In this document: positions 1,129-61,952 of the stretch, piece after piece | Layout: each line of letters opens with the position of its first letter | How positions within the stretch are numbered: position 1 is the stretch's first letter | Virus record (IMG/VR): IMGVR_UViG_3300023174_005819 | Location: 23,240 to 87,239 of that record | Length of the DNA: 64,000 nucleotides | From: a virus | Strand: one strand, 5' to 3' | The notes under the pieces: model-generated | The model's database searches: none | What the model saw: the letters and a program-made list of their open reading frames with translations, nothing else | Told to the model about the DNA's origin: nothing | Made by a program: the position numbers and the translations under genes

Positions 1129-1151
1129 AGTAACATTTTTTATAATTTAAA

Positions 1152-1160
1152 GTGTAATAA
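1152..1160 (+). promoter_or_regulatory. Putative late promoter box GTGTAATAA
   Basis: Matches the GTGTAATWWA box found before most structural operons in this window. It ends 5 bases before the ATG at 1166, so a transcript from it would have almost no leader. No -35 element is visible. Confidence 0.5.
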
Positions 1161-1165
1161 AGATT

Positions 1166-21144: not shown

Positions 21145-21153
21145 TATATCAAT

Positions 21154-23321: not shown

Positions 23322-23349
23322 TTGCATTTTGTTAAAAGAAAGGTATAAT
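23322..23349 (+). promoter_or_regulatory. Promoter of the recombinase operon
   Basis: TTGCAT (23322-23327), 16-base spacer, perfect TATAAT (23344-23349). The -10 ends only 6 bases before ATG 23356, so the transcript would begin at or next to the start codon. An AAAGG at 23339-23343 could serve as ribosome site for read-through transcripts. Confidence 0.55.
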
Positions 23350-23355
23350 AAAATT

Positions 23356-24498
23356 ATGGGAAGAAAACCTAAAGAAGAAATCGTCCAATCATCTGGTCCA
23401 AGTTCATCAGATAGATTGTTATCATTTTTAAAAGAAAATAAAGAAGATCATTATAATTTCGAAGATGAAATTTATTATAAAGTATCAACTGGTAGTTTAA
23501 ATCTCGATATCGCTACAAGTGGTGGCTTGTGTCCAGGTTTACATAGATTTATTGGTATGAATGAAGGCGGTAAAACTTCAGAAGCCCTTGAGGTAACAAA
23601 GAATTTTCTTAAATCGGTAGAAAATTCAAGAGCTTTACTTTTTAAAGCAGAGGGAAGATTAAGCAAGGAAATTAAAGATCGTTCTGGTATTAAGTTTGTA
23701 ACTGACCCAAAAGAATGGGTTGACGGAACTTGTTTCGTATTTGAATGTAATATTTTTGAAACAGTTTCAGAATTAATGAAAGATCTTATCCAGTCTAATG
23801 ATGAAAATAAGAGATATATGTTTATTTTAGATTCAGTTGACGGTTTGATGACAAAAGGTGACTCTCAAAAAAGCATGACCGAAGCAACAAAGGTTGCTGG
23901 CGGAGCAGTTATTTCTTCTATGTTGATGAAGAGAATCTCTCTTGCACTTTCTAAACGTGGTCATATGGCAATTTTTATTAGTCAAGTTCGATCTGATATT
24001 AAACTCGATCCTTATGCCGCGAATAAGGATATTCGTCAAACTACTGCGACTGGTGGAAATGCATTATTGCATTTCGCTAATTGGATTCTTGAATTTGAAC
24101 CAAAGTTCAACAAAGACCTTATTCTTGAAAAACCAAATGACAAATATGATCCAGTTAAGAATAAAATTATTGGACATAACGTTAAGATTGTTATTAAAAA
24201 ATCCACAAATGAATCTACAAACTCTAAGATTCAATACCCAATCAAATATGGTCGTAAAGATGGTTCTTCTGTTTGGAGAGAATACGAAATTATTGATCAA
24301 ATTTTGGCTTGGGAATTTGCAACAGCAAAAGGAGCATGGGTTACTTTTTCTGATGAGATCATTGAAGAACTTAAAAAAGTAAATCTAGAACTTAAGAAGC
24401 AACATCAAGGAATAGATAATCTAAGATCTTATCTCGAAGAGAATAAACCAATCGTAGATTATTTTTATAATAAATTCATTAATACTCTTGCATCATGA
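23356..24498 (+). CDS. RecA/UvsX-like recombinase
   Basis: A 380-residue strand-exchange ATPase. GMNEGGKTSEALEV (residues about 62-75) is a Walker A loop; YMFILDSVDGLM (about 155-166) is Walker B; KRGHMAIFISQVRSDI is the RecA L1/L2-proximal strand, followed by TGGNALLHFANW. It is closer in layout to phage UvsX-like proteins than to host RecA, with a long C-terminal extension. ATG 23356 is preferred over the upstream TTG because the promoter -10 lies inside that longer frame. It starts the replication block and overlaps the nuclease gene by ATGA. Confidence 0.85.
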   Translation: MGRKPKEEIVQSSGPSSSDRLLSFLKENKEDHYNFEDEIYYKVSTGSLNLDIATSGGLCPGLHRFIGMNEGGKTSEALEVTKNFLKSVENSRALLFKAEGRLSKEIKDRSGIKFVTDPKEWVDGTCFVFECNIFETVSELMKDLIQSNDENKRYMFILDSVDGLMTKGDSQKSMTEATKVAGGAVISSMLMKRISLALSKRGHMAIFISQVRSDIKLDPYAANKDIRQTTATGGNALLHFANWILEFEPKFNKDLILEKPNDKYDPVKNKIIGHNVKIVIKKSTNESTNSKIQYPIKYGRKDGSSVWREYEIIDQILAWEFATAKGAWVTFSDEIIEELKKVNLELKKQHQGIDNLRSYLEENKPIVDYFYNKFINTLAS

Positions 24499-24914
24499 GA
24501 TTATTGAATATTAACGGCAAGCTCGTTAATAAAAATGTAAGAAACTACGAAATAGATTGGGATGGAAAATGCAGAAGCAAATTGCAATTTAAATTCAAGC
24601 AATTCTTCTATCCTTACTGGAAAAATCATATTGTTTATGAAGAGTTTCCAGTTTATGGAAGCATGCTTAAAGTAGATTTATTAAATGCTACGAAAAAGAT
24701 AGCAGTTGAGATACAAGGCAATCAACACGAGAGTTTCAATAAATTCTTTCACGATAATTCTAGATTAAAATATCTTCAAAGCATAAAAAGAGATGTTAAG
24801 AAAGAAAAATGGCTTGAAATGAATGGATTTAAATTCTTAGAACTCTACGAAAATGATTTAAAAAGTCTGTCACCACAATATATAGAAGAAAAGTGCGGAA
24901 TATTAATTATTTAA
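24495..24914 (+). CDS. PD-(D/E)XK / Vsr-like endonuclease
   Basis: A 139-residue protein. KVDLLNATKKIAVEIQGNQH (nucleotides about 24670-24730) has the D-X(n)-E-X-Q arrangement of the Vsr/DUF559-type variant of the PD-(D/E)XK fold, and a conserved RD..K..W...NGF..LEL tail follows, which is the typical last helix and strand of such nucleases. Partner of the recombinase by overlap. Substrate unknown: repair, resolution or host DNA degradation. Confidence 0.65.
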   Translation: MRLLNINGKLVNKNVRNYEIDWDGKCRSKLQFKFKQFFYPYWKNHIVYEEFPVYGSMLKVDLLNATKKIAVEIQGNQHESFNKFFHDNSRLKYLQSIKRDVKKEKWLEMNGFKFLELYENDLKSLSPQYIEEKCGILII

Positions 24915-24923
24915 GTGTAAAAT
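24915..24923 (+). promoter_or_regulatory. GTGTAA box (variant GTGTAAAAT)
   Basis: Variant of the putative late box, ending 6 bases before the GTG start at 24930. It is the only member of the set inside the replication block, so it may be a chance match or may give that small gene late expression. Confidence 0.35.
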
Positions 24924-24929
24924 TCTGTA

Positions 24930-25193
24930 GTGACAAATAAGAAAAAATTTAATTTCCCACCTGCTCTTTTAAAACAAATTGATGAATGCAGTTTTGGTGG
25001 ATATATTCTTTTTAATTTTTCTAATAAAGGTGAACCTCAAGTATATACTAAATTTGATAATCAAATAAATGCTATGGCTCTTTTATATTATTTAAATACA
25101 TGGGGACAAAGCATAGACCAACTTAATCTAGAAGCCACTACTGATTTAATAGCAAGAAAAAACGAAGAAGAAGATTCAGAAGAACAAGATTAA
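24930..25193 (+). CDS. Small acidic-tailed hypothetical protein
   Basis: An 87-residue protein with a GTG start. The body is KKKFNFPPALLKQIDECSFGGYILFNFS; the C-terminus is strongly acidic (NEEEDSEEQD). A similar-sized acidic-tailed protein occurs at 30634 (FFNLKDKAS..DEDEDDE), and both share a short beta-rich core with N.Q...AL / ATGLAAF helix. They may be related adaptor or anti-regulatory proteins of the replisome; function not known. Confidence 0.55.
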   Translation: MTNKKKFNFPPALLKQIDECSFGGYILFNFSNKGEPQVYTKFDNQINAMALLYYLNTWGQSIDQLNLEATTDLIARKNEEEDSEEQD

Positions 25194-25196
25194 AAC

Positions 25197-25225
25197 TTGA
25201 CTTTTAATTTCTAGTTTGGTATCAT
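25197..25225 (+). promoter_or_regulatory. Promoter of the helicase operon, near-leaderless
   Basis: TTGACT (25197-25202), 17-base spacer, TATCAT (25220-25225). The expected transcription start near 25232 lies only about 3 bases before ATG 25235; an AAGG touching the ATG is too close to act as a normal Shine-Dalgarno site. Confidence 0.7.
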
Positions 25226-25234
25226 ATATAAAGG

Positions 25235-26719
25235 ATGATTTATTCTTTACAAGTAGAAAGACATGTATTAGGTGGTCTATTAAAGCATCAAGATTTATTT
25301 GCAGATATTGATGTATTTTTAACAGAGAATGATTTCTATAATGATGTTCATTGTACTATTTATTCAATATTTAAGAATATCAAGCATAGGGGCGAAAATG
25401 TAGATAAAGTACTATTAGCCGAAAAGATTAAAAATCTTGGAATCTCATTTAAAGATGAAATTAATATCTTTGATTATATTGATAACTTAAGCTTCTCACA
25501 AATCACGGAAGAAGCAACAATGGAAGCGTGCAAGGAACTTATTAAGTTGCGAGTTAGAAGAGAAATATCTTCAACAGCAGATAAGCTTAAAGAATATGTA
25601 ACGAAAAACTCAGATGAATCACTTGATTCTATAATATCTAAAATAGATCAGATTTATAACAAAAAGATCTCGTCTTATTCTGAGAATGATATGCCAATTA
25701 ATATTTTTGAAGGAGTTGAAGATCTTATCGAAGAAATTGGCAATAGTCCAAAAGAAGATACTGGACTTATAACTCCATATTCTGAATTTAATAGAATGTA
25801 TGGTGGTTTAAAGAATGGTAATATTTATGCAATCGCAAGTAGGCCAGGTCAAGGAAAATCAACTTGGTTAAATGATATTTGTTTTAAAACTTCTATTAAT
25901 CCTAAGAATAAAACTAAAACTCTTATTCTTGATACCGAAATGCAAACTGTAGATATTCAATTAAGAATGGTTGCATCTTTAAGTGGAGTTCCAGTTTGGT
26001 ATCTTGAAACTGGAAACTGGCGTAAAAATGAAGAAATGACCAAGAAAGTAAGAGAAGCTTGGGATAAGGTTAAAAAATATGAATACTTTCATTATCATGT
26101 AGGAAATAAAAATATTGATCAAGTATGTTCTATGATTCGCAGATGGTATCTTTCTAAAGTTGGAAGAGGAAATCAAGCTATGATCGCTTATGATTACATT
26201 AAACTAACTGGAGAAAAAGTCGGACAAAACTGGGCAGAACATCAAGCGATTGGTGATAAGATAGACAAACTAAAAAGAATTTCAGAAGAAATCAATTGTC
26301 CAATTATTACAGCCATGCAATTGAATAGAACTGGTGAAAGTTTTAATAGAAAAGGTTCAGAGGTTGTTGATGATAGCTCTGTAATTTCACTTTCAGATAG
26401 ATTACAATGGTTCGCATCATTCGTAGCAATCTTTAGAAGAAAAACTCTAGATGAGATTACTCTTGATGGTCAAGCGTTTGGAACTCATAAGTTGATTCCC
26501 ACTAAAACTAGATTCCAAGGAAAAGACGCAGCTGGTCATCAAGATTTGGTTAGAAGACTAGATTGCACTGGTAAAGAAGTCTGGTCACAAAATTATTTAA
26601 ATTATAATGTTCAAAACTTTAATATAGAAGAAAGAGGATCACTCGCAGATGTAGCAGAACGTCAAAGAGAACAATACGAACTTAATGATGCAAACGCAAA
26701 TGACGGAGAACTATTATGA
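25235..26719 (+). CDS. dnaB: Replicative DNA helicase, DnaB-like
   Basis: A 494-residue hexameric helicase. Residues 1 to about 110 are the DnaB N-terminal helical domain (VERHVLGGLLKHQDLF). The RecA-like C-terminal ATPase has Walker A in ASRPGQGKSTWLN (residues about 203-215), TLILDTEMQ, a Walker B segment AMIAYDYIKLTGE and the AMQLNRTGES sensor motif. Length is normal for DnaB (about 470). No loader of DnaC type is seen nearby. It starts an operon with thyX, primase and a RecB-like nuclease. Confidence 0.88.
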   Translation: MIYSLQVERHVLGGLLKHQDLFADIDVFLTENDFYNDVHCTIYSIFKNIKHRGENVDKVLLAEKIKNLGISFKDEINIFDYIDNLSFSQITEEATMEACKELIKLRVRREISSTADKLKEYVTKNSDESLDSIISKIDQIYNKKISSYSENDMPINIFEGVEDLIEEIGNSPKEDTGLITPYSEFNRMYGGLKNGNIYAIASRPGQGKSTWLNDICFKTSINPKNKTKTLILDTEMQTVDIQLRMVASLSGVPVWYLETGNWRKNEEMTKKVREAWDKVKKYEYFHYHVGNKNIDQVCSMIRRWYLSKVGRGNQAMIAYDYIKLTGEKVGQNWAEHQAIGDKIDKLKRISEEINCPIITAMQLNRTGESFNRKGSEVVDDSSVISLSDRLQWFASFVAIFRRKTLDEITLDGQAFGTHKLIPTKTRFQGKDAAGHQDLVRRLDCTGKEVWSQNYLNYNVQNFNIEERGSLADVAERQREQYELNDANANDGELL

Positions 26720-27372
26720 ATGTAAATTTAGTATCAATTACAAAACCAGAAATTAAAGGAATTAAAAATCCAGAAGATTTAGTTGCATTTTGTGCTAGAG
26801 TTAGTAATCCATCTAATCAAATGAATGTTGAAACTGCTCCGAAGCTATTAAAATTTTTAATCAAACATAAGCATTGGAGTCCATTCGAACTTGTTGATAT
26901 GTGTGTTGAAATTAAAACTAGCAGAGGAATTGCAGCTCAAATTCTTAGACACAGATCATTTAGTTTTCAAGAATTTAGTCAAAGATATAGTATTGCAAAT
27001 GAGTTTGAAGATATTGAACTCAGATTACAAGGAGATAAGAATAGGCAAGTGGGTGAAATTCTTATGAAAACAAATACCGATGCATATGATAAAGTCAATG
27101 AACTTCTAATAGAATCCCTATCACTTTCTCAACATTGTTATGATACAATGATTGAAAATGGAGTTGCGAAAGAAGTAGCAAGAATGATATTACCACTAAC
27201 AACTCAAACCACAATGTATATGAAAGGTTCATTAAGAAGCTGGATTCATTATATCGAATTAAGAACAGAACAGAATACTCAAAAAGAACATAGAGTAATT
27301 GCAGAAAAATGTAAAAAGATTTTCATTAAAGAATTTCCTACAATAAGTGAGGCTTTAGAATGGAAGAATTAA
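26716..27372 (+). CDS. thyX: Flavin-dependent thymidylate synthase
   Basis: A 218-residue enzyme that methylates dUMP using FAD and NADPH. The ThyX signature RHRSFSFQEFSQRYS (residues about 78-92; RHRx(7)S pattern) is intact, and the C-terminal RSWIHYIELR..TQKEHR segment binds dUMP. Length is typical. It overlaps dnaB by ATGA. It supplies dTTP for phage DNA synthesis independent of folate ThyA. Confidence 0.93.
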   Translation: MNVNLVSITKPEIKGIKNPEDLVAFCARVSNPSNQMNVETAPKLLKFLIKHKHWSPFELVDMCVEIKTSRGIAAQILRHRSFSFQEFSQRYSIANEFEDIELRLQGDKNRQVGEILMKTNTDAYDKVNELLIESLSLSQHCYDTMIENGVAKEVARMILPLTTQTTMYMKGSLRSWIHYIELRTEQNTQKEHRVIAEKCKKIFIKEFPTISEALEWKN

Positions 27373-28265
27373 ATGTATATCAAATCCTAACAGATCTTGG
27401 TTACCAATTAAAAGATTGTGGAAAAGAATTTAGAGCTAAACCTTTATATAGGGATAGCGATAATGACTCTGTATTAAGAATCTACAAAGATACTGGCAAA
27501 TGGGTGGATTTCAAACAGAATATGAGCGGCGACATAAACTCACTAGTTAAATTAACACTTAAATTAGAAAATCCAAGTGAAGCTCAAGAATGGCTTAAAA
27601 ATAAAAACTTTGCATTTAAAAAGCCAACAGAACCAGAAAAACCACTTATAAAATCTTCTAAAAAATTTGATATAGAAATTCTTTCTAAACTACAAGACGA
27701 TCAAGAGTATTGGCTCAAAAGAGGAGTAGATATTGAAACATTAAAAATTTTCAAAGGTGGAGTTGCAAAAATGGGAAAGATGAAAAACAGATATGTATTT
27801 CCTATTTTTAATTCTAAGAATAATATTATAGGATTTTCTGGAAGAGACATTACCAATTTATCTAAGATAAAGTGGAAGCATATTGGTGAAAAAACAGAAT
27901 TTGTTTATCCATTATTTGTTAATTCAGAAATCATACAACAACAAAAAGAAATAATCTTAGTTGAAAGTATTGGAGATATGTTGAGTTTATGGCAAGCTGG
28001 AGTTAAGAATACTCTTGTTACATTTGGAACTAGTTTAAGTTTAGCGATTTTAAATTACTGTTTAAAACTTGATCCAAAAAAAATTTATATTAGTTTAAAC
28101 AATGATTCAAATAAAAACAATGCTGGAAATATTGCAGCAGAAAAAACTCAATCTAGATTGAGTAGATACTTTGATAAAAGTCAACTTAAAATAGCTCTAC
28201 CACCTAAAAAAGATTTTGGTGAGATGACTAAAGAAGAAATAATTCAATGGAAAAACAATCTTTAA
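27360..28265 (+). CDS. TOPRIM primase, DnaG-like
   Basis: A 301-residue protein, shorter than bacterial DnaG (about 600). The N-terminal part (residues 1-75) resembles a CHC2-type zinc-domain shape (FRAKPLYRDSDNDSVLRIYKDTGKWVDF..GGDI-like) but lacks clear zinc-binding Cys/His. IILVESIGDMLSLWQAG (about 198-214) is the TOPRIM glutamate motif and ISLNNDSNKNNAGNIAAE the DxD-like motif, here with N-D. Adjacent DnaB supports a primase role. It overlaps thyX by 13 bases. Confidence 0.75.
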   Translation: MEELNVYQILTDLGYQLKDCGKEFRAKPLYRDSDNDSVLRIYKDTGKWVDFKQNMSGDINSLVKLTLKLENPSEAQEWLKNKNFAFKKPTEPEKPLIKSSKKFDIEILSKLQDDQEYWLKRGVDIETLKIFKGGVAKMGKMKNRYVFPIFNSKNNIIGFSGRDITNLSKIKWKHIGEKTEFVYPLFVNSEIIQQQKEIILVESIGDMLSLWQAGVKNTLVTFGTSLSLAILNYCLKLDPKKIYISLNNDSNKNNAGNIAAEKTQSRLSRYFDKSQLKIALPPKKDFGEMTKEEIIQWKNNL

Positions 28266-29212
28266 AAGTATTATCAGCATCTAGAATTAAAACTCTTGAG
28301 ACTTGCTCTTGGGTTTATTGGAATAATTATCATACCAAAGTTCCACAATCTCAAAATGATGGAGCTTTAAGAGGAACGATTTGTCATACAGTTTTTGAAT
28401 TACTCTTAAATAAAAGACATCTTAAAAATTATAAAAGAATAATAAAAAAGAATTCGATTGATGGTGATGAGGGAGTAAATAGGTTAGTTAAAAAACTATC
28501 AGCAAAGGTCAAGCTTGACGAAAGCAATTATAAACTATTAAATGATATGATTTTAGTTGGCCTTAAAAACGACTTCTTTGGACAAGGTGGAGAAATAATT
28601 AAACCAGAGTATGATTTTGATATTAAAAATGATGAACCAAAATATCATATTCGTGGCTTTATAGATAAGCCAGTTAAAATCAAAAAAGAAATGCATATAA
28701 TCGACTATAAAAGCTCTAAATACAAGTTTAGGGGTGATGACCTTGAAGCTAATATTCAAGCTATGATGTATAGTCTTGCTAGTAAAAAATTATGGCCCAA
28801 GTTGAAACCTATTGTTAAATTTCTATTTCTCAGGTTTCCAAAACAACCAATTCAAGAGCTAGTATTTGATGACAATCAAATTAAAGGATTCGAGCATTAT
28901 CTGGAGCACATTAATGATTATGTTAATAAGTTTGACGAAGAATCTGCCAGATCAAACTTTGCAATAGATAGCGTTAAGAATAAGTGGATGTGTCAAATTG
29001 GTGGATGGAAATGTCCATATAAAGATCCATATACATATTATGTCAAAGTAAATGATAAAGGCGATATAGTAGAAACTAGCCTAGAAGATAATTTTAAAGA
29101 TATTAAAGGATTCAAAGTAGAAACTCGAAAATATGAAGGATGTCCAAAGTTTCAAGCTGCTTCCGCTAAAGATGACTTTCTAGATGACTCAAAAGACGAA
29201 TTTTTAGATTGA
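28247..29212 (+). CDS. RecB/Cas4-like PD-(D/E)XK exonuclease
   Basis: A 321-residue protein. SASRIKTLETCSWVYW at the start, RGTICHTVFELLL (His motif, residues about 46-58), GFIDKPVKIKKEMHIIDYKSS (D..D-x-K catalytic pair, about 139-158) and an IQAMMYSLA helix match the RecB-family nuclease core. One Cys near residue 17 and Cys residues near the C-terminus (WMCQIGGWKCPY, GCPKF) could hold a Cas4/AddB-type iron-sulfur cluster. The C-terminus is acidic (DDSKDEFLD). Likely used in recombination or DNA processing. Confidence 0.75.
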   Translation: MEKQSLKVLSASRIKTLETCSWVYWNNYHTKVPQSQNDGALRGTICHTVFELLLNKRHLKNYKRIIKKNSIDGDEGVNRLVKKLSAKVKLDESNYKLLNDMILVGLKNDFFGQGGEIIKPEYDFDIKNDEPKYHIRGFIDKPVKIKKEMHIIDYKSSKYKFRGDDLEANIQAMMYSLASKKLWPKLKPIVKFLFLRFPKQPIQELVFDDNQIKGFEHYLEHINDYVNKFDEESARSNFAIDSVKNKWMCQIGGWKCPYKDPYTYYVKVNDKGDIVETSLEDNFKDIKGFKVETRKYEGCPKFQAASAKDDFLDDSKDEFLD

Positions 29213-29237
29213 TATATTTATAAATTGTTGTTATATT
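29209..29237 (+). promoter_or_regulatory. Promoter of the replicase operon, leaderless
   Basis: TTGATA (29209-29214), 17-base spacer, TATATT (29232-29237). ATG 29245 follows 7 bases after the -10 box, so the predicted transcript starts essentially at the start codon. The -35 overlaps the stop codon region of the previous gene. Confidence 0.6.
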
Positions 29238-29244
29238 GGTAAAA

Positions 29245-29991
29245 ATGATACCTTTATTTAAATCTCATTATTCTTTAGGAAGATCTATTCTTACTCTAGA
29301 GGATAAATCTGAAAGAGATGAGTATCCAGATTCTATTATTCAAATAGCTAAACAAAATAAATTAAAAGAGATATTTCTAGTAGAAGATAATATGTCATCA
29401 TTTCTTGAAGCTTATACTAATTGCAAGAACAATGATATTAAATTAAATTATGGATTAAGAATTTCAGTTACAGAGTCGATAGCTGATAAAACGGATGAAT
29501 CAAGAGCAAAAAACTCAAAATTTATACTTTTCTTTAAAAATAAAAAAGGTTACGAATCCTTGACTAAATTATTTAGTATTGGTGCAAAAGATGGTTTTTA
29601 TTATGAACCTAGAGTAGATTATACTACAATAAAGAATAACTGGTCAGATGATTTAATTATGGGTATTCCATTCTATGATTCTTTCATATTTAATAATACT
29701 TTAAAAAATAGCATATGTGTTCCACAAATAGATTTTACAAAACCAGTAGTATTCATTGAGCAAAATGAATTGCCTTTTGATTTTATTATTAAAGATAAAA
29801 TATTATCATTTGCAGAAAAGAATAAATTAGAAATTTATAAAGCAAAAAGCATTTACTATAATGATAGAAAAGATTTTAAAACATACTTGACATTCAGATG
29901 CATTAATAATAGAAGTGTTCTAAATAAACCAGATATTGAGCATATGAGTAGTAATGAATTTTCTTTTGAAAGCTGGAAGGAAAATAATTAA
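29245..29991 (+). CDS. DNA polymerase III alpha, separate PHP domain
   Basis: A 248-residue protein equivalent to the N-terminal PHP domain of DnaE. FKSHYSLGRSIL near residue 5 corresponds to the HSDYS opening with its His; LKEIFLVEDNMSSFLEA matches the A.TDH.N..G block but with ED-N where His would be, so the metal site looks degraded. KNKKGYESLTKLFSIGAKDGFYY matches the N.GY.NLL..S block. It stops before the palm; the polymerase core is a separate gene at 30851, after an exonuclease gene. Start at ATG 29245, matched to the leaderless promoter. Confidence 0.75.
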   Translation: MIPLFKSHYSLGRSILTLEDKSERDEYPDSIIQIAKQNKLKEIFLVEDNMSSFLEAYTNCKNNDIKLNYGLRISVTESIADKTDESRAKNSKFILFFKNKKGYESLTKLFSIGAKDGFYYEPRVDYTTIKNNWSDDLIMGIPFYDSFIFNNTLKNSICVPQIDFTKPVVFIEQNELPFDFIIKDKILSFAEKNKLEIYKAKSIYYNDRKDFKTYLTFRCINNRSVLNKPDIEHMSSNEFSFESWKENN

Positions 29992-29993
29992 AT

Positions 29994-30632
29994 ATGGACG
30001 AACATTTATTAAGATACGACAAAAATAAAACTTTAGTTTTTATAGATTGCGAAACATTTAATCTTTGCTTAAATTTTTGTCATAATATTCCTTGGCAAAT
30101 TGCTATGCTTAAAGTTCAAGGCGATAAAAAAATTGATCAAAAGAATTTTTATTTAAAATGGCAAACAGACTTAAAAATTAGTCAAGATGCAGCCAGAATC
30201 ACAAGATATGACCATAAAAAAGTTCAAAAAGAAGGTTATGATCCTAAAGAGATATTTCCAACTATTAAAGATTGGTTAGACCATGCAGATTATATTATTG
30301 GTCACAATACTCTTGGGTTTGACATTTATCTTATAAAAGAGTATTATAAATACATGGGTTGTAATTGGCATCATCTTGTGAATAAATTTATTGATACAAA
30401 TGCAATAGCAAGAGGTATAAAATATGAGATGCCTTATAATTCAAAAGATAGCTTAATTGAATATCAATATAAAATTCTTCATACTAGAAAAAAGAATGTT
30501 AAAAGTTCTTTGACTTTCTTAGGAAAAGAAAATGGGATAGAACATGATTACGAAAAACTTCATGATGCTATTAATGATCTTGACTTAAATTTAAAAGTAT
30601 GGAATAAATTAAAATGGCAATTAGAGGTATAA
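29994..30632 (+). CDS. DnaQ-like 3'-5' exonuclease
   Basis: A 212-residue DEDDh proofreading exonuclease. LVFIDCETFN (residues about 14-23) is Exo I (DxE); ADYIIGHNTLGFDIYLI (about 100-116) is Exo II with its Asp; LHDAINDLDLNLKVW (about 191-205) is Exo III with the H-x4-D pair. Being 2 bases after the PHP gene and before the polymerase gene, it most likely proofreads for this phage replicase. Confidence 0.87.
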   Translation: MDEHLLRYDKNKTLVFIDCETFNLCLNFCHNIPWQIAMLKVQGDKKIDQKNFYLKWQTDLKISQDAARITRYDHKKVQKEGYDPKEIFPTIKDWLDHADYIIGHNTLGFDIYLIKEYYKYMGCNWHHLVNKFIDTNAIARGIKYEMPYNSKDSLIEYQYKILHTRKKNVKSSLTFLGKENGIEHDYEKLHDAINDLDLNLKVWNKLKWQLEV

Positions 30633-30633
30633 T

Positions 30634-30858
30634 ATGGCATCATTAGACGATATTTATGATATAATCCAAAAACTAGAAAATGGTGGAATAGAATATTTAC
30701 TTATCACGGTCCAAAAAGGTAAAAAACAAGGTAAGGCTGATGTATTCTTTAATCTAAAAGATAAGGCATCTATGAAAATATTAGCGACTGGATTAGCAGC
30801 TTTTAACAAAGAGATAGATAATATTGATAGACAAGATGAAGATGAAGATGATGAATAA
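30634..30858 (+). CDS. Small acidic protein between exonuclease and polymerase
   Basis: A 74-residue protein one base after the exonuclease stop. Body: a short helix, a IEYLLITVQKGK beta pair, a DVFFNLKDKAS strand and an ATGLAAFNKE helix; tail DRQDEDEDDE. Similar in plan to the 87-residue gene at 24930. Position suggests a replisome accessory protein, possibly binding the clamp, exonuclease or polymerase. No known family. Confidence 0.5.
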   Translation: MASLDDIYDIIQKLENGGIEYLLITVQKGKKQGKADVFFNLKDKASMKILATGLAAFNKEIDNIDRQDEDEDDE

Positions 30859-33433
30859 TACCATAAAAGATGAATTATTTTCCAGTAAGTTTACTACTAC
30901 TGACCTTGGATTGCATGGGGTCAGACTTCCAGAATTTAATATTGATGGATCTTTAAAAAGACATCTTAACATTAGCGAAGATGTTTCTAATTACGACTTT
31001 CTAAGGGCATTAGCCCTAAATGGTTTCAAAGATTTAAAGATAGAAAAAGATAATAAAGATTACAAGAAATATATTGATCGAGCAAAATACGAACTAGAAA
31101 CATTGAAAGAATTAGGTTTTACTGATTATGTTTTATTAGTATGGGATGTTATTAATTTTTGTAAAACAAATAATATACCAGTTGGACTAGGTAGAGGTTC
31201 AGCTGCTGGTTCACTTATTCTTTATCTAATTGGCGTAACTAGAATTGATCCAGTTAAATATGACCTTTATTTCGAAAGATTTATATCCAAGATTCGAGCT
31301 AAAAAGCAGGTTATTGATGGAGTAACATATCTTGATGGCAGTTTAATGTGCGATGTCGATTTAGATATTTGTTATTATAATCGTCAAAAAGTATTACAGT
31401 ATTTAGAGTCTAAATTTAAAGGTAAAACTAGTAAAATTCTAACGCTTAATACTTTAAGTGGAAAACTTTTAATTAAAGAATGTGGTAAAATCGTTGGAGA
31501 AAAAACAGAAGAAGAAATGACGAATATTTCTTCATTAATCCCCAAAGTTTATGGTCAAGTTAAAGATATTAATACTGCATATGAAGAAGTAGAAAAATTT
31601 AAAGAATGGTGCGATGAAAATAAAGAAACATTTCAAATTGCTTTAAAGTTAAGAGATTTAATTAAAAATAAAGGAGTTCATCCATCTGGAGTTCTTCTTT
31701 CTTACTACGATTTAGAAACAGTATGTCCAACAGAATTTTCTTCTGATAAAGAACCAGTTTCAAGTTTTGATATGAATTGGGTTAGTTTATTTAATATTAA
31801 ACTTGATATCTTGGGATTAAGAAGTGTTTCCGTAGTTGATGATGTTTGTAAAAATATTGGCATTAAAGTAGAAGATATTGATTTAAATCATGAATCTATC
31901 TATAGAAATCTACAAGATTTAAAATCTCCTCATGGTTTATTCCAAATTGAAGCAGAAACTAACTTTAGAGTTTGTCAAAAAGTAAAACCAAAGAATCTTG
32001 AAGAACTTAGCGGAGTATTAGCTCTAGCAAGACCTGGAGCATTACAATTCGTAGATAAATATGCTGCCCACACAAATTATCAACAATCAGAAAGTATTCA
32101 TCCATTCTTTGATGATATTCTAAAACAAACTGGTGGAGTAGCATTGTATCAAGAGCAATTGATGAAGATGGCTAATAAGATTGGATTTACTTTGGATGAA
32201 GCAGAAATCTTAAGAAGAATCGTAGGCAAAAAGAAAACCGAAGAGATCAAAGCTTGGAAAAAGAAGATTGAATCAAAGATCAAAGAAAATAAAATACCAA
32301 AAGAAGTAGGAGAAATTCTATGGAAAATCTTGGAAGATTCTGCGAATTATTCTTTTAACAAGAGTCATTCATTGGCATATGCAGCTTTAGCGGCAGTTAC
32401 AATTTATTTAAAATTTAATTATCCTCAACAATTCTTCTTATCTTTATTGAAAATGAGCAGAAACGAACCAGACCCAATTGGTGAAATTTCTAAAATTCAA
32501 AAAGAAATGCATGAGTTTGATATTAAACTTCTTCCTCCGCATATCATCAAATCAGAGATGGATTTCTCAACAGAAGATAAAGATATTAGATTCGGATTAC
32601 TATCAATCAAAGGTATTAGTGATAAATCTATTGAAAAATTAAATAGTTTTAGAAATAAGTATTCTAATAAATTTGAGATTTTTCAAGCAGCAGAAGAAGC
32701 CAATCTTAATATTGGAGTGTTATCTTCTTTAATTCAAGCAGGAGCATTGAGTGGTTTTAGTCAATCTAGAAGTAAAATTGTATTAGAAGCTCAATTATGG
32801 AATATTTTAACTTCTAAAGAAAAGAAATATTCAATTTCATTCGCAGACAAATTTGATTATGACTTAATTAAAATTATTAAGCATCTTAATAAATTTACTG
32901 ACGAAAAGAATCATTTAGTTATTAAAGATAATAGATTAAATACTATTAAAGCAAAATATGCACCATATCTTGAAATCTATAACCAAAATAGTAAAAGCGA
33001 AAGTTTTGCTAATTGGTATTATGAAAAGAAACTTTTGGGATATACATATAATAAAAATTTAAGAGATATCTTCGCAGAGAAAAGAGAAAATCTTAAATAT
33101 GTTAGCGATATTGTAGATGAACCAGTTAATAGTAAAGTGGCATTTGTTGGTCAAATAGAAGAAGTCTATACTGGGGTATCTAAAAATGAAAAGAAAACCA
33201 GATATGTAAGGTTAAAGATATCAGATGAAACAAGTTCAATTAGCGTATTAATATTTAATGATAATATTGAGAATAATAAATTATTAAATAATAAAGCTTT
33301 TGAAGAAGGAAATATTGTTATTGCTAAGGGCTCAAAGAGAGATGATTGTATATTTGGAGACTTGATAGCTATTCAAGATCATCAAATTTATATGAAATTA
33401 AATGATTTAAAAAAGACAGATAAAAATAATTGA
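30851..33433 (+). CDS. dnaE: DNA polymerase III alpha core lacking PHP domain
   Basis: An 860-residue C-family polymerase. The N-terminus (LPEFNIDGSLKRHL) starts where a normal DnaE ends its PHP domain. YVLLVWDVINFCKTNNIPVGLGRGSAAGSLILY (residues about 97-129) is the classical GRGSAAGSL palm motif, and CDVDLDI (about 166-172) holds the catalytic aspartates. GVHPSGVLLS, an HhH-region ARPGALQFVD, then NYSFNKSHSLAYA follow. An OB fold lies near residues 760-840 (VAFVGQIEEVYTG..). The tau-binding tail of bacterial DnaE is absent. Start ATG 30851 overlaps the previous stop by 8 bases. Confidence 0.92.
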   Translation: MNNTIKDELFSSKFTTTDLGLHGVRLPEFNIDGSLKRHLNISEDVSNYDFLRALALNGFKDLKIEKDNKDYKKYIDRAKYELETLKELGFTDYVLLVWDVINFCKTNNIPVGLGRGSAAGSLILYLIGVTRIDPVKYDLYFERFISKIRAKKQVIDGVTYLDGSLMCDVDLDICYYNRQKVLQYLESKFKGKTSKILTLNTLSGKLLIKECGKIVGEKTEEEMTNISSLIPKVYGQVKDINTAYEEVEKFKEWCDENKETFQIALKLRDLIKNKGVHPSGVLLSYYDLETVCPTEFSSDKEPVSSFDMNWVSLFNIKLDILGLRSVSVVDDVCKNIGIKVEDIDLNHESIYRNLQDLKSPHGLFQIEAETNFRVCQKVKPKNLEELSGVLALARPGALQFVDKYAAHTNYQQSESIHPFFDDILKQTGGVALYQEQLMKMANKIGFTLDEAEILRRIVGKKKTEEIKAWKKKIESKIKENKIPKEVGEILWKILEDSANYSFNKSHSLAYAALAAVTIYLKFNYPQQFFLSLLKMSRNEPDPIGEISKIQKEMHEFDIKLLPPHIIKSEMDFSTEDKDIRFGLLSIKGISDKSIEKLNSFRNKYSNKFEIFQAAEEANLNIGVLSSLIQAGALSGFSQSRSKIVLEAQLWNILTSKEKKYSISFADKFDYDLIKIIKHLNKFTDEKNHLVIKDNRLNTIKAKYAPYLEIYNQNSKSESFANWYYEKKLLGYTYNKNLRDIFAEKRENLKYVSDIVDEPVNSKVAFVGQIEEVYTGVSKNEKKTRYVRLKISDETSSISVLIFNDNIENNKLLNNKAFEEGNIVIAKGSKRDDCIFGDLIAIQDHQIYMKLNDLKKTDKNN

Positions 33434-33458
33434 CATTTCTAAATATAGCTAGTAACAT
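33430..33458 (+). promoter_or_regulatory. Leaderless promoter before the SSB candidate
   Basis: Perfect TTGACA (33430-33435), 17-base spacer, TAACAT (33453-33458), 8 bases to ATG 33467. The -35 overlaps the polymerase stop codon. Confidence 0.68.
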
Positions 33459-33466
33459 AAAGTAAT

Positions 33467-34012
33467 ATGATATCATTTTATAAACCAAATAGCAAGAATA
33501 CAGGCACGGCTTGTAGTTTCAGCGTAAATTCAAAAGATAATTCAGTATGGGGGTCATTAATCAAGCAAAGCTCTTGGAATGATGCCAAAAAAATTGGATC
33601 TTTTTCAGAAAATCAAAATAATCCAAGTAAAAGTGTTAAAGTCAAATTTTCTTTAACAGAAGCAGCAGGTCTTTTAGATGCTCTAGAAAGAAACACAGAA
33701 TTTTCAGCATATCATACTTCTGAGAAACAAATTACAAAAATCAAATTAGCACCTTATATTAGAGATGAAAAACAAGTAGGCTTTTCATATAGCGTAAATA
33801 AAGAAGACAAGCAAAATGTTGAAAATAAACAATCCTATTTGATTGGTTTTTATTTTAACGAAGCAAGACTATTGAAAGAATTTTTAAGTTATTCTTTAAA
33901 TTCTGTTTTCGAAGCTCAAAGAATTGAAGCTATTAAGAAAGCAAAAAATTCAACAAAAGAAACCAAAGACGTTAGCGCAACTAATCAAGAAGAAGATAGC
34001 GAACTCTGGTAA
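33467..34012 (+). CDS. Candidate single-stranded DNA-binding protein
   Basis: A 181-residue protein. Residues 1 to about 140 look beta-rich with aromatic/Lys residues (SVKVKFSLTEAAGLL, ITKIKLAPYI, GFSYSVNKED); the last 35 residues are charged and end in EEDSELW. An acidic C-terminal tail with a final aromatic residue is shared by SSB of bacteria, T7 gp2.5 and similar proteins. It follows the polymerase and has its own promoter, as expected for a highly expressed SSB. There is no recognised family motif, so this is inference. Confidence 0.45.
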   Translation: MISFYKPNSKNTGTACSFSVNSKDNSVWGSLIKQSSWNDAKKIGSFSENQNNPSKSVKVKFSLTEAAGLLDALERNTEFSAYHTSEKQITKIKLAPYIRDEKQVGFSYSVNKEDKQNVENKQSYLIGFYFNEARLLKEFLSYSLNSVFEAQRIEAIKKAKNSTKETKDVSATNQEEDSELW

Positions 34013-35928
34013 TGGAAAGAAAAAAGAAAGTTCTAATACAAACGGATTTTGCCTTAGCTAAAACAGGCTTTGGTAGAAACGCTAGAGCTTTACTTAAATA
34101 TTTGTATTCTACAAATAAATATGATTTAATTCATTATTGCTGTGGAATGACTTATGATCATCCAGAATTCAAAAAGACTCCTTGGAGATCTGTTGGCTCA
34201 CTTCCTAATACTCAACAAGAATTAGATCAACTAAATAAAGATCCAAATTTAGCTCGAATGGCAAGTTATGGAGCGCATTATTTAGATCGAGTTATCAATG
34301 ATGAAAAGCCAGACGTATATTTTGCAGTACAAGATATTTGGGGGGTAGATTTTGCTATTGAAAAGCCTTGGTTTAATAAAATTGCATCTGTAATTTGGAC
34401 TACATTAGATTCTCTACCTATTCTTCAATCTGCTATTACTAATGCTCCAAAAATTAAAAATTATTGGATTTGGAGTAATTTTGCTACAAAAGCTCTTCAT
34501 AAACTTGGATATAGTCATGTAAAAACTATTCATGGATCTTTGGAAGATAAAGATTTTTATCGTTTATCAGATTTTGATAGAAATCAACTTAGGAAAAAAT
34601 ACAATATTGCTCAAGATGCATTTATTATCGGATTTGTATTTAGAAATCAATTAAGAAAAAGCGTTCCTAATTTACTTCAAGGATATGCATTATGGAAGAA
34701 AAATAATCCTCAAATTAAAAATACATACTTACTACTTCACACTCATTGGGGAGAAGGGTGGAATATACATAAATTAGCAGCAGAAGCTGGAGTAAATCAA
34801 AATGAAATATTAACAACTTATATATGTAAAAGCTGTGGAAATTATGAAATTAAAAATTTTACTGCACAAGATTTAGATTGTAAATTTTGTGGATCAAAGA
34901 AAACTCAAACCACAACAAATGTTAGTATCGGAGTCACGGAGGCTCAATTAAATGAAGTATATAATTTAATGGATGTTTATTGTCATCCATTTACTAGTGG
35001 GGGTCAGGAAATTCCAATTCAAGAAGCAAAATTAACGGAATTAATTACGTTAGTTACAAATTATAGTTGCGGAGAGGAAATGTGTGAACCAGAAGCTAAC
35101 TCATTACCACTAGATTGGATAGAATACAGAGAACATGGTACAGAATTTATTAAAGCATCAACTCTTCCAGAATCAATAGCAAAACAATTAAATATAGTAT
35201 ATAAAATGCCTATTCATCAAAGAAAAGAAATTGGAAAAAAGGCCAGAGAATGGACTATTAAAAATTTTGCAATTAGTAATGTTGGAAAAAGTATAGAAAA
35301 TTTTATTGATAATCAAAAATTAGTTGATTGGAATGAAATAAAAGAGAATCCAGAGGATAAAAAAGATCCTTATTTTCAAATTCCAAATATCACAGATGAT
35401 GCAGAATGGTTAATATTTATGTATCATAATATATTAAAAATGAAAAATATTGATCGCAATGATTCTGGACATCAATATTGGATGGGAGAATTAGCGAAAG
35501 GAGCAAAAAGACAAGATATCGAAAATTATTTTAGAAATGTGGCATTAAAAGAAACAGAAGATAAAAAACAGGTTAAATTTGAGGATCTACTTGACCCAAA
35601 TGATAAAGGTAGAGTGATATATGTTATGCCAGAGAGTGCTGGAGATATTTTCTTAAGCACTGCATTATTTAAATCTATTAAAAATAGATATCCAGATTAT
35701 AGTTTATATGTTGCAACAAAACCACAGTACAAAGATATTTTAGATGGTAATCCATATGTTCATAGATGGATAGAGTATAATCCAATTATGGATAATTTGA
35801 TTTGGTTAGAAGGAAATAATCAACATAATGGATATTTTGATATTGCTTATTTACCATATACTTGTACTCAAAGAAATTTAAATTATCTTCACAATGGTTT
35901 AGATAAAATAGAATTTCAATTAAGTTGA
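34012..35928 (+). CDS. GT4-like glycosyltransferase with zinc-ribbon insert and half a GT9 domain
   Basis: A 638-residue protein. Residues about 5-430 form a GT-B transferase (QTDFALAKTGFGRNARAL; VYCHPFTSGGQEIPIQEAKLTEL). At about 271-296 a CKSCG...CKFCG zinc ribbon is inserted, unusual for this family. Residues about 430-530 are a helical linker. Residues about 541-638 (VIYVMPESAGDIFLSTALFKSIKNRYP..) are the N-terminal Rossmann half of a GT9 heptosyltransferase-like enzyme, whose C-terminal half is the next gene. It overlaps the previous stop by TAATG. It lies among replication genes, far from the main glycan block. Confidence 0.72.
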   Translation: MERKKKVLIQTDFALAKTGFGRNARALLKYLYSTNKYDLIHYCCGMTYDHPEFKKTPWRSVGSLPNTQQELDQLNKDPNLARMASYGAHYLDRVINDEKPDVYFAVQDIWGVDFAIEKPWFNKIASVIWTTLDSLPILQSAITNAPKIKNYWIWSNFATKALHKLGYSHVKTIHGSLEDKDFYRLSDFDRNQLRKKYNIAQDAFIIGFVFRNQLRKSVPNLLQGYALWKKNNPQIKNTYLLLHTHWGEGWNIHKLAAEAGVNQNEILTTYICKSCGNYEIKNFTAQDLDCKFCGSKKTQTTTNVSIGVTEAQLNEVYNLMDVYCHPFTSGGQEIPIQEAKLTELITLVTNYSCGEEMCEPEANSLPLDWIEYREHGTEFIKASTLPESIAKQLNIVYKMPIHQRKEIGKKAREWTIKNFAISNVGKSIENFIDNQKLVDWNEIKENPEDKKDPYFQIPNITDDAEWLIFMYHNILKMKNIDRNDSGHQYWMGELAKGAKRQDIENYFRNVALKETEDKKQVKFEDLLDPNDKGRVIYVMPESAGDIFLSTALFKSIKNRYPDYSLYVATKPQYKDILDGNPYVHRWIEYNPIMDNLIWLEGNNQHNGYFDIAYLPYTCTQRNLNYLHNGLDKIEFQLS

Positions 35929-35930
35929 TA

Positions 35931-35936
35931 TATCAT
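35931..35936 (+). promoter_or_regulatory. Possible -10 box before 35943
   Basis: TATCAT lies 6 bases before ATG 35943, the same position and sequence as the -10 box at 37109-37114. No convincing -35 is present, so this is only a hint of a leaderless start. Confidence 0.25.
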
Positions 35937-35942
35937 AAATAA

Positions 35943-37094
35943 ATGAGACTTCTTGATACATATGCAACAAATACTGGTTCAAAAATTGATCGACCTTTTA
36001 TTTATACTAAATTTTTCCCATTACCTTTAGATAGATATATAACACTTCAAGCTCAAACTCCATATGATTCAAGGAATTATTCTTATTGGCAAGAAGTTAT
36101 AGATATATTACTTCCATATTTATCTAAAGAAAAAATACATCTTGTTCAAGTTGGGACTAAAGATGAAAGACCATTAAATGGAGCTATTAATTTATTAGGG
36201 CAAACTAATATAAATCAATTAGCATATGTAATAGAAAACTCTACTTTACATTTTGGAGCAGATAGTCTTTGTGTTCATTTAGCTTCATATTTTGATAAAC
36301 CCATAGTTTCAATTTATAGCATAAGTAATCCAAATGTAGCTGGTCCGCATTTTGGAGATAAAAATAAACATATTCTATTAAAAGGATATGAGAGAATAGG
36401 AAATAAAAAACCATCCTATTCTCAAGTAGAATCGCCAAAATCTATTGATACAATTAAACCAGAAGAAATTGCTAAATCAATTCTACAACTTTTACATATA
36501 AAATATAATAATATACCAGAGACTATATTTTTTGGAACAGACTTTAATGTTAAAAGTTTCGAGATTATTCCAGATGAAATTTTAGACCCAAATTCAATAC
36601 CAGTAGAAAATCCAATCATAAGAATGGATTATAGTTTCAATGAAAAAGCTTTAGAAGTTATAATCTCTACAAAGAAAAGTATAGTATTTACAAATAAACC
36701 AATTAAAAAAGATATAATTGAAAAATATAAGCATAATATCAATCAATTAATTTATATAATTGAAGAAGATAATAGCGTTGATTTTGTTAAATTGCTAAAG
36801 AATAATTCCATAAATTATGTGCTTTTATCATTTTTACCAGAAGAAATTTTAAATAATTTTAAATTAGATTATATGGATTATAATTTAATTGTTAATAGGA
36901 AACATAAAACTAAAGAAGATACAAAAATAGAAGATACAAATAATCTTTGTTACAAATCTTGTAGAACACTATTTTCATCAAAAGGTAAATTTACGTCAAG
37001 ATACGATTGGATTAATGGTAATGGGAATAAAGTAGTAGATCATCCAAATTTTTGGAAAGAAGCTGATAATTTTTACATTTTTAAGTTGACTTAA
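35943..37094 (+). CDS. C-terminal half of a GT9 (heptosyltransferase-like) enzyme plus extension
   Basis: A 383-residue protein. Residues 1 to about 190 match the second GT9 half: RLLDTYATNTGS, then IHLVQVGTKDERPLNG, LHFGADSLCVHLASYFDKPIVSIYS (residues about 100-124, the donor-binding D...H segment) and KPEEIAKSILQLL. The first half is the end of the upstream gene, 14 bases away in another frame, so the two proteins probably assemble. Residues 190-383 are unassigned and include a C-terminal zinc-like pair (CYKSC). Confidence 0.65.
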   Translation: MRLLDTYATNTGSKIDRPFIYTKFFPLPLDRYITLQAQTPYDSRNYSYWQEVIDILLPYLSKEKIHLVQVGTKDERPLNGAINLLGQTNINQLAYVIENSTLHFGADSLCVHLASYFDKPIVSIYSISNPNVAGPHFGDKNKHILLKGYERIGNKKPSYSQVESPKSIDTIKPEEIAKSILQLLHIKYNNIPETIFFGTDFNVKSFEIIPDEILDPNSIPVENPIIRMDYSFNEKALEVIISTKKSIVFTNKPIKKDIIEKYKHNINQLIYIIEEDNSVDFVKLLKNNSINYVLLSFLPEEILNNFKLDYMDYNLIVNRKHKTKEDTKIEDTNNLCYKSCRTLFSSKGKFTSRYDWINGNGNKVVDHPNFWKEADNFYIFKLT

Positions 37095-37114
37095 AATATA
37101 ATTTACAGTATCAT
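37086..37114 (+). promoter_or_regulatory. Leaderless promoter before 37121
   Basis: TTGACT (37086-37091), 17-base spacer, TATCAT (37109-37114), 6 bases to ATG 37121. Same boxes as the dnaB promoter. Confidence 0.7.
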
Positions 37115-37120
37115 TCTTAA

Positions 37121-37933
37121 ATGAGTCCAAAAATAAAATCAGAAGAAAATACAATTTCAATTGGTAGTTCAGAGCTATTTGAACCAGTAACAGTAGTTGA
37201 TTCAGAGAATAAATCAACATCTCCTCAAGTAACTCCTCCAAATATAATAACAAGAAACCAATATGGACTTATCGAAGATAAAACTCTTAATTATATATTT
37301 AATGATGATGGAACTATTAATTGGCGTAAAATGGTTAAAACTGAACATCTTGTACCTAATAGACAAAAGACTCAAGAAACAGATGTTTCAAAGCTTCAAG
37401 ATAAAGATCTTCTTATACTTTTAGGTGGAATTAAAGAGTTAGCTCAAATCAGAGGATATACTAGTGTTGAATATAAAGTAGTTGCAGCTTCTGAAAATTA
37501 TTTTGCAACAAGCTGTAGAATCACTTGGCTACCAAATTATGAAACTGGTGGAAGAGAAGTAGTTTTTGAATCTCTTGCTGACGCTACTTTAAATAATACA
37601 AAGAGTTTCGCCAGATTCTTCTTGGCTGCGATTGCTGAGAATAGAGCGTTTGTTCGCTGTGTACGCAATTTCTTAAAGATTAATATTGTTTCTCAAGAAG
37701 AGCTTGGCGATGCAAAACTTCTTGATGATTCTTCTTCTGTAAATGAAAATCCAACTTCTCCACAATCATTACTTGAAAAAGTCATGAAAGAAAAGAATGT
37801 TAATTTTGAAGCACTAAAGAAAAGATTAATTAAAGATAATTTTGATAATGCAGAAAATTTAAATTCTATATCAGATATACCTAAAGTTAAATTATTTGAA
37901 CTAATAGATAGAATCAAAAAGATTAAAGATTAA
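37121..37933 (+). CDS. Putative recombination (annealase-like) protein
   Basis: A 270-residue protein with its own strong promoter. Residues about 100-200 (EYKVVAASENYFATSCRITW.., then FLAAIAENRAFVRCVRNFLKI) are reminiscent of Rad52/Erf-type annealing domains, which have a beta-hairpin with a basic helix and an A.ENRA..R..R helix. The C-terminal about 70 residues form a small helical domain (LLEKVMKEKNVNFEALKKRL). The match is by feel, with no decisive motif. Its stop codon overlaps the convergent gene on the - strand. Confidence 0.4.
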   Translation: MSPKIKSEENTISIGSSELFEPVTVVDSENKSTSPQVTPPNIITRNQYGLIEDKTLNYIFNDDGTINWRKMVKTEHLVPNRQKTQETDVSKLQDKDLLILLGGIKELAQIRGYTSVEYKVVAASENYFATSCRITWLPNYETGGREVVFESLADATLNNTKSFARFFLAAIAENRAFVRCVRNFLKINIVSQEELGDAKLLDDSSSVNENPTSPQSLLEKVMKEKNVNFEALKKRLIKDNFDNAENLNSISDIPKVKLFELIDRIKKIKD

Positions 37934-38232: not shown

Positions 38233-38514
38233 TTATTTAATTCGTGAATTCAAAAAATTCTCAAGAGTAATTAACATTTTCTTTGTTGTTTCATCACTAA
38301 AAAGATTATTGAAGTAATCAGTTTCTGCGTCAAATTTAGATATTAAATATGATATAACTCTTTTAACGCATGGACAACTTACATTACGCTTTGCTACAGT
38401 TAAATCAGCTAAAATTTCTGGAAATTTATCTTTTAAAGAATTAAAAATTTTAGGATTTTGCAATATACCATTTAAATATAAATTAGAACTAATATATTTT
38501 TTAAATTCCGACAT
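38233..38514 (-). CDS. Hypothetical protein with CxC motif
   Basis: A 93-residue mostly helical protein in the same - strand operon. NVSCPCVKRVISYL (residues about 44-57) has a CPC pair. Upstream on the minus strand an ACTGTAAATAATA stretch, similar to the late box, lies about 20 bases before the start. No family recognised. Confidence 0.5.
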   Translation of the reverse strand: MSEFKKYISSNLYLNGILQNPKIFNSLKDKFPEILADLTVAKRNVSCPCVKRVISYLISKFDAETDYFNNLFSDETTKKMLITLENFLNSRIK

Positions 38515-38554
38515 ATATAGAATTATATATTATTTACAGTATTATTTCAATATT

Positions 38555-39364
38555 TTATCTTTCACCACTTAATATATATGTTTGAAAAGCTAAACTTAAT
38601 TTGGCATCATCAGAAATACTATAATTTAATTGAGTTTGATTATTTATTAAATTAGATAAGTTAAATGATAATAAAGATTCATCTGTTTTATATTTTTTAA
38701 AAGAAATATTTAAATTTCTTTGAGTGATTCCAGTTAATATATTAGTTACTTTTTCTTGAGTATAATTACTCATAGAAAATTCAAAATTTAAAGATATTGA
38801 TATTGGATATTTTATAATTACATTATCTGGAAGATAATTACCAACAGTATAAACTGCTTCTCTTGGAATATTTATATTTAATTGAAAATTTTGCAATCTA
38901 TTTTCATTAGCTTCTTTTAAATTTAAATCAACGTAACAATTATCTCCTATATTGAAATTATTTAAAACTTTTGGCGTATAATTGAAAACTCCAGTTTCAT
39001 TTCCTAATTCTCCTAAAATCAAATTTTTAACATTAACAATTGGATACTGATCTAAAGAGTAAGATATACTATAATTTGTTAAATAACCACTAGAAAATTT
39101 AAAATAATTATTGCCATATTCAAGTTTACCACCAAATGGTCTAGACCCAGTATAGCCTATAAACCTATCATTAGAGCTTAATATATAATTTAAATCAAGA
39201 TTCGCAACAACTGGAGCAGTTACCAAATAATTTATATTCTGGTCATTTATAGCTAAAGATGGATTAATATTATTATTATAATTAATATTTAAACTCTGCA
39301 CTCCAGATATCAAAGAATCATTTAGATAAAAGTTTTGATTTTCTATAGAATATACATTAAACAT
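38555..39364 (-). CDS. Putative tail structural protein
   Basis: A 269-residue beta-rich protein driven by the - strand late box at 39371-39379. It has Asn/Ile/Tyr-rich strands and a SLNINYN..LVTAPVVANLDLNYILSSNDRFIGYTG segment that resembles in plan the SPTVSLDFSYILAGLTNEADLGFT part of the tail-tube candidate at 56616. Later ISLNFEFSMSNYT parallels its PLTVNLSVDAQV segment. It may be a divergent tube-like or tail-end protein. Lies next to the tail-tip operon but on the opposite strand. Confidence 0.5.
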   Translation of the reverse strand: MFNVYSIENQNFYLNDSLISGVQSLNINYNNNINPSLAINDQNINYLVTAPVVANLDLNYILSSNDRFIGYTGSRPFGGKLEYGNNYFKFSSGYLTNYSISYSLDQYPIVNVKNLILGELGNETGVFNYTPKVLNNFNIGDNCYVDLNLKEANENRLQNFQLNINIPREAVYTVGNYLPDNVIIKYPISISLNFEFSMSNYTQEKVTNILTGITQRNLNISFKKYKTDESLLSFNLSNLINNQTQLNYSISDDAKLSLAFQTYILSGER

Positions 39365-39370
39365 TAACTA

Positions 39371-39379
39371 TAATTACAC
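39371..39379 (-). promoter_or_regulatory. Late box GTGTAATTA (- strand)
   Basis: Read on the - strand from 39379, it ends 6 bases before the ATG at 39364. Forms an inverted pair with the + strand box at 39389. Confidence 0.55.
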
Positions 39380-39388
39380 TACTTTTAA

Positions 39389-39398
39389 GTGTAAAATA
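39389..39398 (+). promoter_or_regulatory. Late box GTGTAAAATA (+ strand)
   Basis: Starts the tail-tip operon. A 17-base leader follows with AGAGGTAAAAGGTAT before ATG 39416, including a Shine-Dalgarno-like AGAGG. Confidence 0.55.
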
Positions 39399-39415
39399 TA
39401 AGAGGTAAAAGGTAT

Positions 39416-60239: not shown

Positions 60240-60242
60240 ACC

Positions 60243-60253
60243 CTAAATTACAC
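60243..60253 (-). promoter_or_regulatory. Late box GTGTAATTTAG (- strand)
   Basis: Read from 60253; the ATG at 60239 follows after 3 more bases, so there is no room for a Shine-Dalgarno site. Confidence 0.55.
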
Positions 60254-60269
60254 TTTAAATTATTTAAAT

Positions 60270-61927: not shown

Positions 61928-61930
61928 ATA

Positions 61931-61941: not shown

Positions 61942-61952
61942 CTCTATTATAT

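Follow-up and report, generated by a model that had tools for sequence, protein, structure and literature searches.

Do the transcripts of a phage begin upstream of the genes that they serve, or at the start codon itself? The question is raised by a 64,000-nucleotide stretch of viral DNA, referred to here as the window, which comprises bases 23240 to 87239 of the 87,239-bp IMG/VR virus record IMGVR_UViG_3300023174_005819 and in which promoter-like boxes stand directly before the start codons of replication genes. The genome is incomplete and has a GC content of about 28%; the window encodes a RecA-like protein, DnaB, ThyX, a primase, a PHP-domain protein, DNA polymerase III alpha, a lambda J-type tail protein, and a transfer-messenger RNA (tmRNA). 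A search of a phage isolate collection revealed no close isolate, all matches showing less than 60% identity, and IMG/VR was found to hold numerous relatives. Our analysis indicates that two classes of promoter very probably start transcription at the start codon, or within about 3 nucleotides (nt) of it, and so give rise to leaderless mRNAs.

The argument begins with five plus-strand sites that match the sigma70 pattern of TTGACA, a 17-bp spacer, and TATAAT. All five boxes reported in the preliminary description could be read directly, with gaps of 6, 9, 7, 8, and 6 nt to the ATG; that description had counted three spacers of 17 nt, whereas four are of this length and one is of 16 nt. The first site (23322..23358; TTGCAT-16-TATAAT; 6 nt) precedes the ATG at 23356 of a RecA-like gene (PF00154) and was retained in 68 of 70 unique orthologues, retention meaning that, in unique orthologous upstream sequences, a promoter scoring 6 bits or more lay 4 to 10 nt from the ATG. 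The dnaB promoter (25197..25237; TTGACT-17-TATCAT; 9 nt; ATG at 25235) was present in all 82 unique orthologues, that of the PHP-domain gene (29209..29247; TTGATA-17-TATATT; 7 nt; ATG at 29245) in 42 of 51, that of a 181-amino-acid (aa) gene (33430..33469; TTGACA-17-TAACAT; 8 nt; ATG at 33467) in 68 of 69, and that of a 270-aa gene (37086..37123; TTGACT-17-TATCAT; 6 nt; ATG at 37121) in 48 of 48. Many of the relatives are close, and these counts do not represent independent events. At 29209 and 33430, the TGA stop codon of the upstream gene (dnaE in the latter case) lies inside the next -35 hexamer.

The placement of these sites is strongly enriched. A standard weight matrix for E. coli sigma70 was applied at each offset upstream of each candidate ATG; over the 87,239-bp record, 13 genes scored at least 8 bits at 6 to 9 nt from the ATG, where about 0.5 was expected, and all other offsets held a mean of 0.13 genes per offset at this threshold. 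Shuffled upstream sequences yielded, at offsets of 5 to 9 nt, a mean of 0.44 genes and a maximum of 3 in 400 shuffles, compared to the 13 observed, and the chance of a gene attaining at least 7.9 bits was 0.7%. A leadered sigma70 promoter, at 15 to 34 nt, was found at one gene (2.5 expected). Promoters at 5 to 9 nt were also abundant in a relative of 172 kb (34 genes; about 1.3 expected) and in one of 136 kb (15 genes; about 0.8 expected). When the first 50 kb were scanned in T4, phiEco32, and the Pelagibacter phage HTVC008M, no gene had a promoter scoring 8 bits or more at 5 to 9 nt, and the few promoters that were detected in these phages lie at 15 to 34 nt; the Thermus phage phiYS40, subjected to the same test, had seven such genes at 5 to 9 nt, with 0.8 expected. 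The absence of the peak from the three leadered controls and its presence in phiYS40 support the interpretation of the placement as leaderless. The preliminary description had let its case depend on whether operon heads are enriched in the boxes when the full genome is considered, and the enrichment proved to be both genome-wide and conserved. The strongest sigma70 sites lie outside the reported stretch, elsewhere in the record, where they precede several small genes as well as genes for a DNA ligase and an endonuclease, and an additional minus-strand promoter (38512..38550; TTGAAA-17-TATAAT) lies 7 nt from the ATG of a 93-aa gene. In the 172-kb relative (L370, G001, 120 to 140 kb), about ten small genes follow one another in a run, most with their own TTGAC-17-TAT..T promoter 6 nt before the ATG.

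Comparison of orthologues shows what has been preserved. The offset is kept in nearly all of them, as the spacer drifts and the upstream neighbor varies; the best-scoring promoter lies 6 to 10 nt from the ATG in nearly every case, and strong conservation in the sequence logo is restricted to the -35 and -10 hexamers, with neither spacer nor discriminator prominent. Unrelated sequence has several times taken the place of the region upstream of recA; in many relatives it is the tail of a coding sequence, and nearly all versions still carry a promoter 6 to 10 nt from the ATG. Retention of the promoter through these replacements is the best sign that selection acts on the spacing itself. Start codons were taken from open reading frames and from conservation, and we judge them to be sound because homology in DnaB extends from residue 3 onward and the ATG of both recA and dnaB is retained in all aligned relatives.

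The interpretation of the boxes as leaderless promoters was supported but was too narrow in scope, as its spacing is shared by another promoter-like element that is not of the sigma70 type. This element, (T)AAGTGTAA, stands 8 to 9 nt before the ATG or GTG of several structural and other genes; eight genes in the phage's own record have GTGTAA at 7 to 10 nt, compared to 0.09 per offset elsewhere, and no -35 partner is visible in the logo. On the plus strand, AAGTGTAA is found 9 nt before the GTG at 24930 of an 87-aa gene (24913..24932; 75 of 75 orthologues) and 8 nt before the ATG of a 421-aa gene (1150..1168). On the minus strand, TAGTGTAA lies 9 nt from the ATG at 39364 (39362..39381; 23 of 23 orthologues), AAGTGTAA lies 8 nt from the ATG at 60239 (60237..60255; 18 of 18), and AGGTGTAA lies 8 nt from an ATG in a gene with few relatives (61925..61943). 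Outside the window, elements occur on the minus strand at L002 11769 and L003 1249, and two second-class genes there have the element in 12 of 12 and 21 of 26 orthologues; the starts at L002 11753 and L003 1233 (both minus strand) read ATGTGA, in which the GTG of an open frame is overlapped by an ATG that runs directly into a stop codon, and either AUG or GUG may be used. A leadered exception is the minor tail gene with its ATG at 39416 (39387..39418, plus strand), where AAGTGTAA is 21 nt away and a Shine-Dalgarno (SD) site, GAGG or AAGG, is present in 26 of 26 orthologues; at the head at 54231, similarly, the element is about 24 nt away and is accompanied by a conserved SD site. The tmRNA gene (window positions 283 to 727) has a promoter, TTGCTT-17-TATAATGTGTAA, whose sigma70 -10 box overlaps a ATGTGTAA element, and tmRNA genes of two relatives encode near-identical tag peptides (AKTAKYKGHISAR...).

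A phage-encoded factor that could recognize this element is at hand. A 207-aa protein (L003:6430-7053, minus strand) matches PHROG 351 with an E value of 5.6e-12; its matches to Pfam sigma regions 2 and 4 are weak and below their cutoffs, and homologues are present in seven of nine large records. This putative sigma factor probably reads the AAGTGTAA element. The competing view, that AAGTGTAA is an operator or other regulator site and not a promoter element, is unlikely, although it deserves more weight than any other alternative considered here. In its favor, the element at 39362..39381 and its plus-strand copy ahead of 39416 share the palindrome TTACACT..AGTGTAA, there is no visible -35 partner, and protein binding is putative; however, in most genes carrying the element it has one orientation and a fixed distance of 8 to 9 nt to the start codon, a sigma-like gene is present, and similar single-element promoters read by a phage sigma factor exist, such as tAATGTAtA in phiEco32.

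Translation signals complement the promoter data. At sigma70 heads, 4% of orthologues have an SD-like tetramer 4 to 12 nt before the start; at second-class starts, 10% do. At 48 other genes the mean was 29% of orthologues and the median was 2%; in 12 of the 48, no fewer than 70% of orthologues retained the site, examples being thyX (79 of 81), the primase gene (57 of 57), and the 2265-aa gene at 54231 (20 of 20). Because the median is so low, SD use must be considered patchy in this phage family; its members can use SD sites, yet the promoter-proximal genes do not. The earlier statement that most operon heads of the replication block lack a usable SD site agrees with this pattern of rarity at heads and conservation at many internal genes.

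Holoenzymes of the sigma70 family normally initiate 6 to 9 nt after the -10 element. In the window phage the -10 element ends 6 to 9 nt before the start codon of the operon head, so that RNA polymerase would be expected to start at the AUG or no more than about 3 nt from it, and the mRNA to be leaderless. Heads of the replication and nucleotide metabolism operons would be served by host-type sigma70 promoters (TTGACA-17-TATAAT), and a second set that includes structural genes would be served, at the same spacing, by the single-element promoter, probably with the phage sigma factor. At the head gene of each transcript, translation would accordingly begin by leaderless initiation, with a 70S ribosome engaging the 5'-terminal AUG, a route for which studies of leaderless mRNA provide the basis (PMC9031893), and many downstream genes of the operons would rely on ordinary SD sites. 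Gene content suggests a temporal order in which the sigma70 set is early and the AAGTGTAA set is late.

A number of considerations weigh against this scheme. The 5' ends are predicted to lie at the AUG from the position of the promoters; where the gap is 9 to 10 nt, as in dnaB and variants of recA, a leader of 2 to 4 nt is just as probable as none; the outcome would depend on the polymerase of the host and on the host's tolerance of leaderless mRNA; and read-through from upstream operons would supply these genes with leadered transcripts as well. GTG is the start codon of three second-class genes, and in some hosts leaderless mRNAs are poorly served by it (PMC9031893); some late heads (39416 and 54231) have leaders with SD sites.

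Read-through also forms the core of an improbable alternative, in which the promoters are real, ribosomes reach the head genes mostly on longer transcripts of the upstream operon by SD-independent or reinitiation routes, and the short spacing is a by-product of genome compaction. The stop-to-ATG gaps at the five heads are 26 to 41 nt, about the length of a promoter, the two -35 boxes at 29209 and 33430 reuse an upstream stop codon, and SD usage is low throughout the genome. Compaction alone, however, predicts variable spacing and not the narrow peak at 6 to 9 nt; the spacing is kept where room exists, at L002 heads beside divergent genes, and after upstream replacement, and T4, which is likewise compact, has no such peak. 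Compaction may have caused the loss of leaders but does not predict that the spacing is constant. We regard as very improbable the proposal that the boxes are promoters from which transcription starts elsewhere, through unusual start choice or an overlapping upstream promoter, to yield ordinary leaders: start sites are predicted from sequence and the scans detected a few extra promoter-like sites further upstream, but a distance of 6 to 9 nt after the -10 element is usual for sigma70-family factors, one of 6 to 8 bp is reported for the phage sigma of phiEco32, the best promoter of the orthologues lies at 6 to 10 nt nearly always, and SD sites are absent from those starts. Chance AT-rich lookalikes, for which a 28% GC genome with many promoter-like strings inside its genes offers ample material, are refuted by the offset-shift, shuffling, and cross-genome tests and by hexamers that are conserved while spacers drift, and the probability that we assign to them is negligible.

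Some further features of the region were recorded. A site at 22244 (TTGACA-18-TAAACT-6-TTG), conserved in 30 of 31 cases, was excluded on account of its position within a conserved coding region, and sites at 4268 and 21119 were kept out as doubtful. A long block of glycosyltransferase and sugar-nucleotide genes (window positions 3330 to 23316) is almost without internal promoters of either class. DNA polymerase III alpha appears to be split (29236 to 33433) into the PHP-domain gene, a 212-aa exonuclease-like gene, a 74-aa gene, and a polymerase core with finger and HHH domains. With regard to the host, no relative of the DnaE protein was found in 84,980 genomes, and the phage tRNA-Thr(UGU) (L002 11465-11537) has a 38-nt core with an exact match in only three of them, all metagenome-assembled genomes and two of them Patescibacteria, on contigs with ordinary bacterial genes. 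Patescibacteria may be considered a weak lead; when 192 genomes of this phylum were scanned with the consensus promoter, matches stood at leaderless spacing in 62 and at 25 to 28 nt in 55, with no clear host signature.

Whether the arrangement extends to a whole, widely distributed phage family that starts most transcripts at the start codon from host sigma70 and own-sigma promoters, so that infection would depend largely on leaderless translation of head genes and the small, presumably early genes of one relative would each have a leaderless promoter, is a proposition for which the chances appear evenly balanced. If correct, the family would constitute a natural system for the study of phage translation initiation without leaders, and it would become testable why phages go leaderless: to evade control by initiation factors, to economize on sequence, or as a consequence of a host that favors this mode in any case. 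The fixed promoter-to-ATG spacing also offers a practical aid for calling gene starts in uncultured phages.

To our knowledge, genome-wide leaderless mRNA has been documented in few phages, chiefly those of Thermus. Leaderless phage mRNA is already known; what is new is the unusually systematic arrangement in the window family. A literature search, in which subscription literature was little covered, turned up no publication in which this phage group is described as systematically transcribing without leaders, and among the selected IMG/VR contigs listed in a pattern scan, leadered promoters outnumbered leaderless ones once the matched site was set aside. The mRNA of lambda cI, transcribed from PRM, is leaderless and originates from a sigma70 promoter; it resembles the present case in being a phage mRNA with a promoter of this type, but it concerns a single gene and not a genome. 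It was in lambda that leaderless initiation was first found (PMC3160421).

The closest parallel is with phiYS40, most of whose middle and late mRNAs are leaderless according to a review (PMC3594737). Many genes of both phages have a -10 element about 6 to 9 nt ahead of the start codon, and in the window phage SD sites are nearly absent from those starts. The two differ in that no close relationship between them was seen or is to be expected and in that, in the window phage, the consensus sigma70 promoters of replication genes are also placed for leaderless transcription, as are the elements of a second promoter-like class. No gene for initiation factor 3 (IF3) was found in nine records, nor was there any sign of the manipulation of IF2 and IF3 considered in the comparison with phiYS40.

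The second class is best compared with the promoters of phiEco32, whose sigma factor, gp36, uses a single element, tAATGTAtA, with starts 6 to 8 bp downstream (PMC8948821). Both phages have a single element without a -35 box; phiEco32 encodes a sigma factor and the window phage a putative one, with weak similarity to regions 2 and 4, and the distance of 8 to 9 nt from the element to the ATG or GTG, a property here of sequence, is compatible with the start distance in phiEco32. The consensus sequences differ, tAATGTAtA as opposed to AAGTGTAA, and in phiEco32, over the first 50 kb, sigma70 promoters do not stand at a leaderless distance. Among the cellular genes of bacteria, those that are leaderless are recognized, by accepted practice, from a TA-rich signal some 12 bp ahead of the start (PMC3160421), and the TA-led genes of Actinobacteria and Deinococcus-Thermus (Zheng 2011) have TANNNT about 12 bp before the start, as is the case here; to this cellular pattern the window phage adds a well-conserved TTGACA -35 box and a 17-bp spacer.

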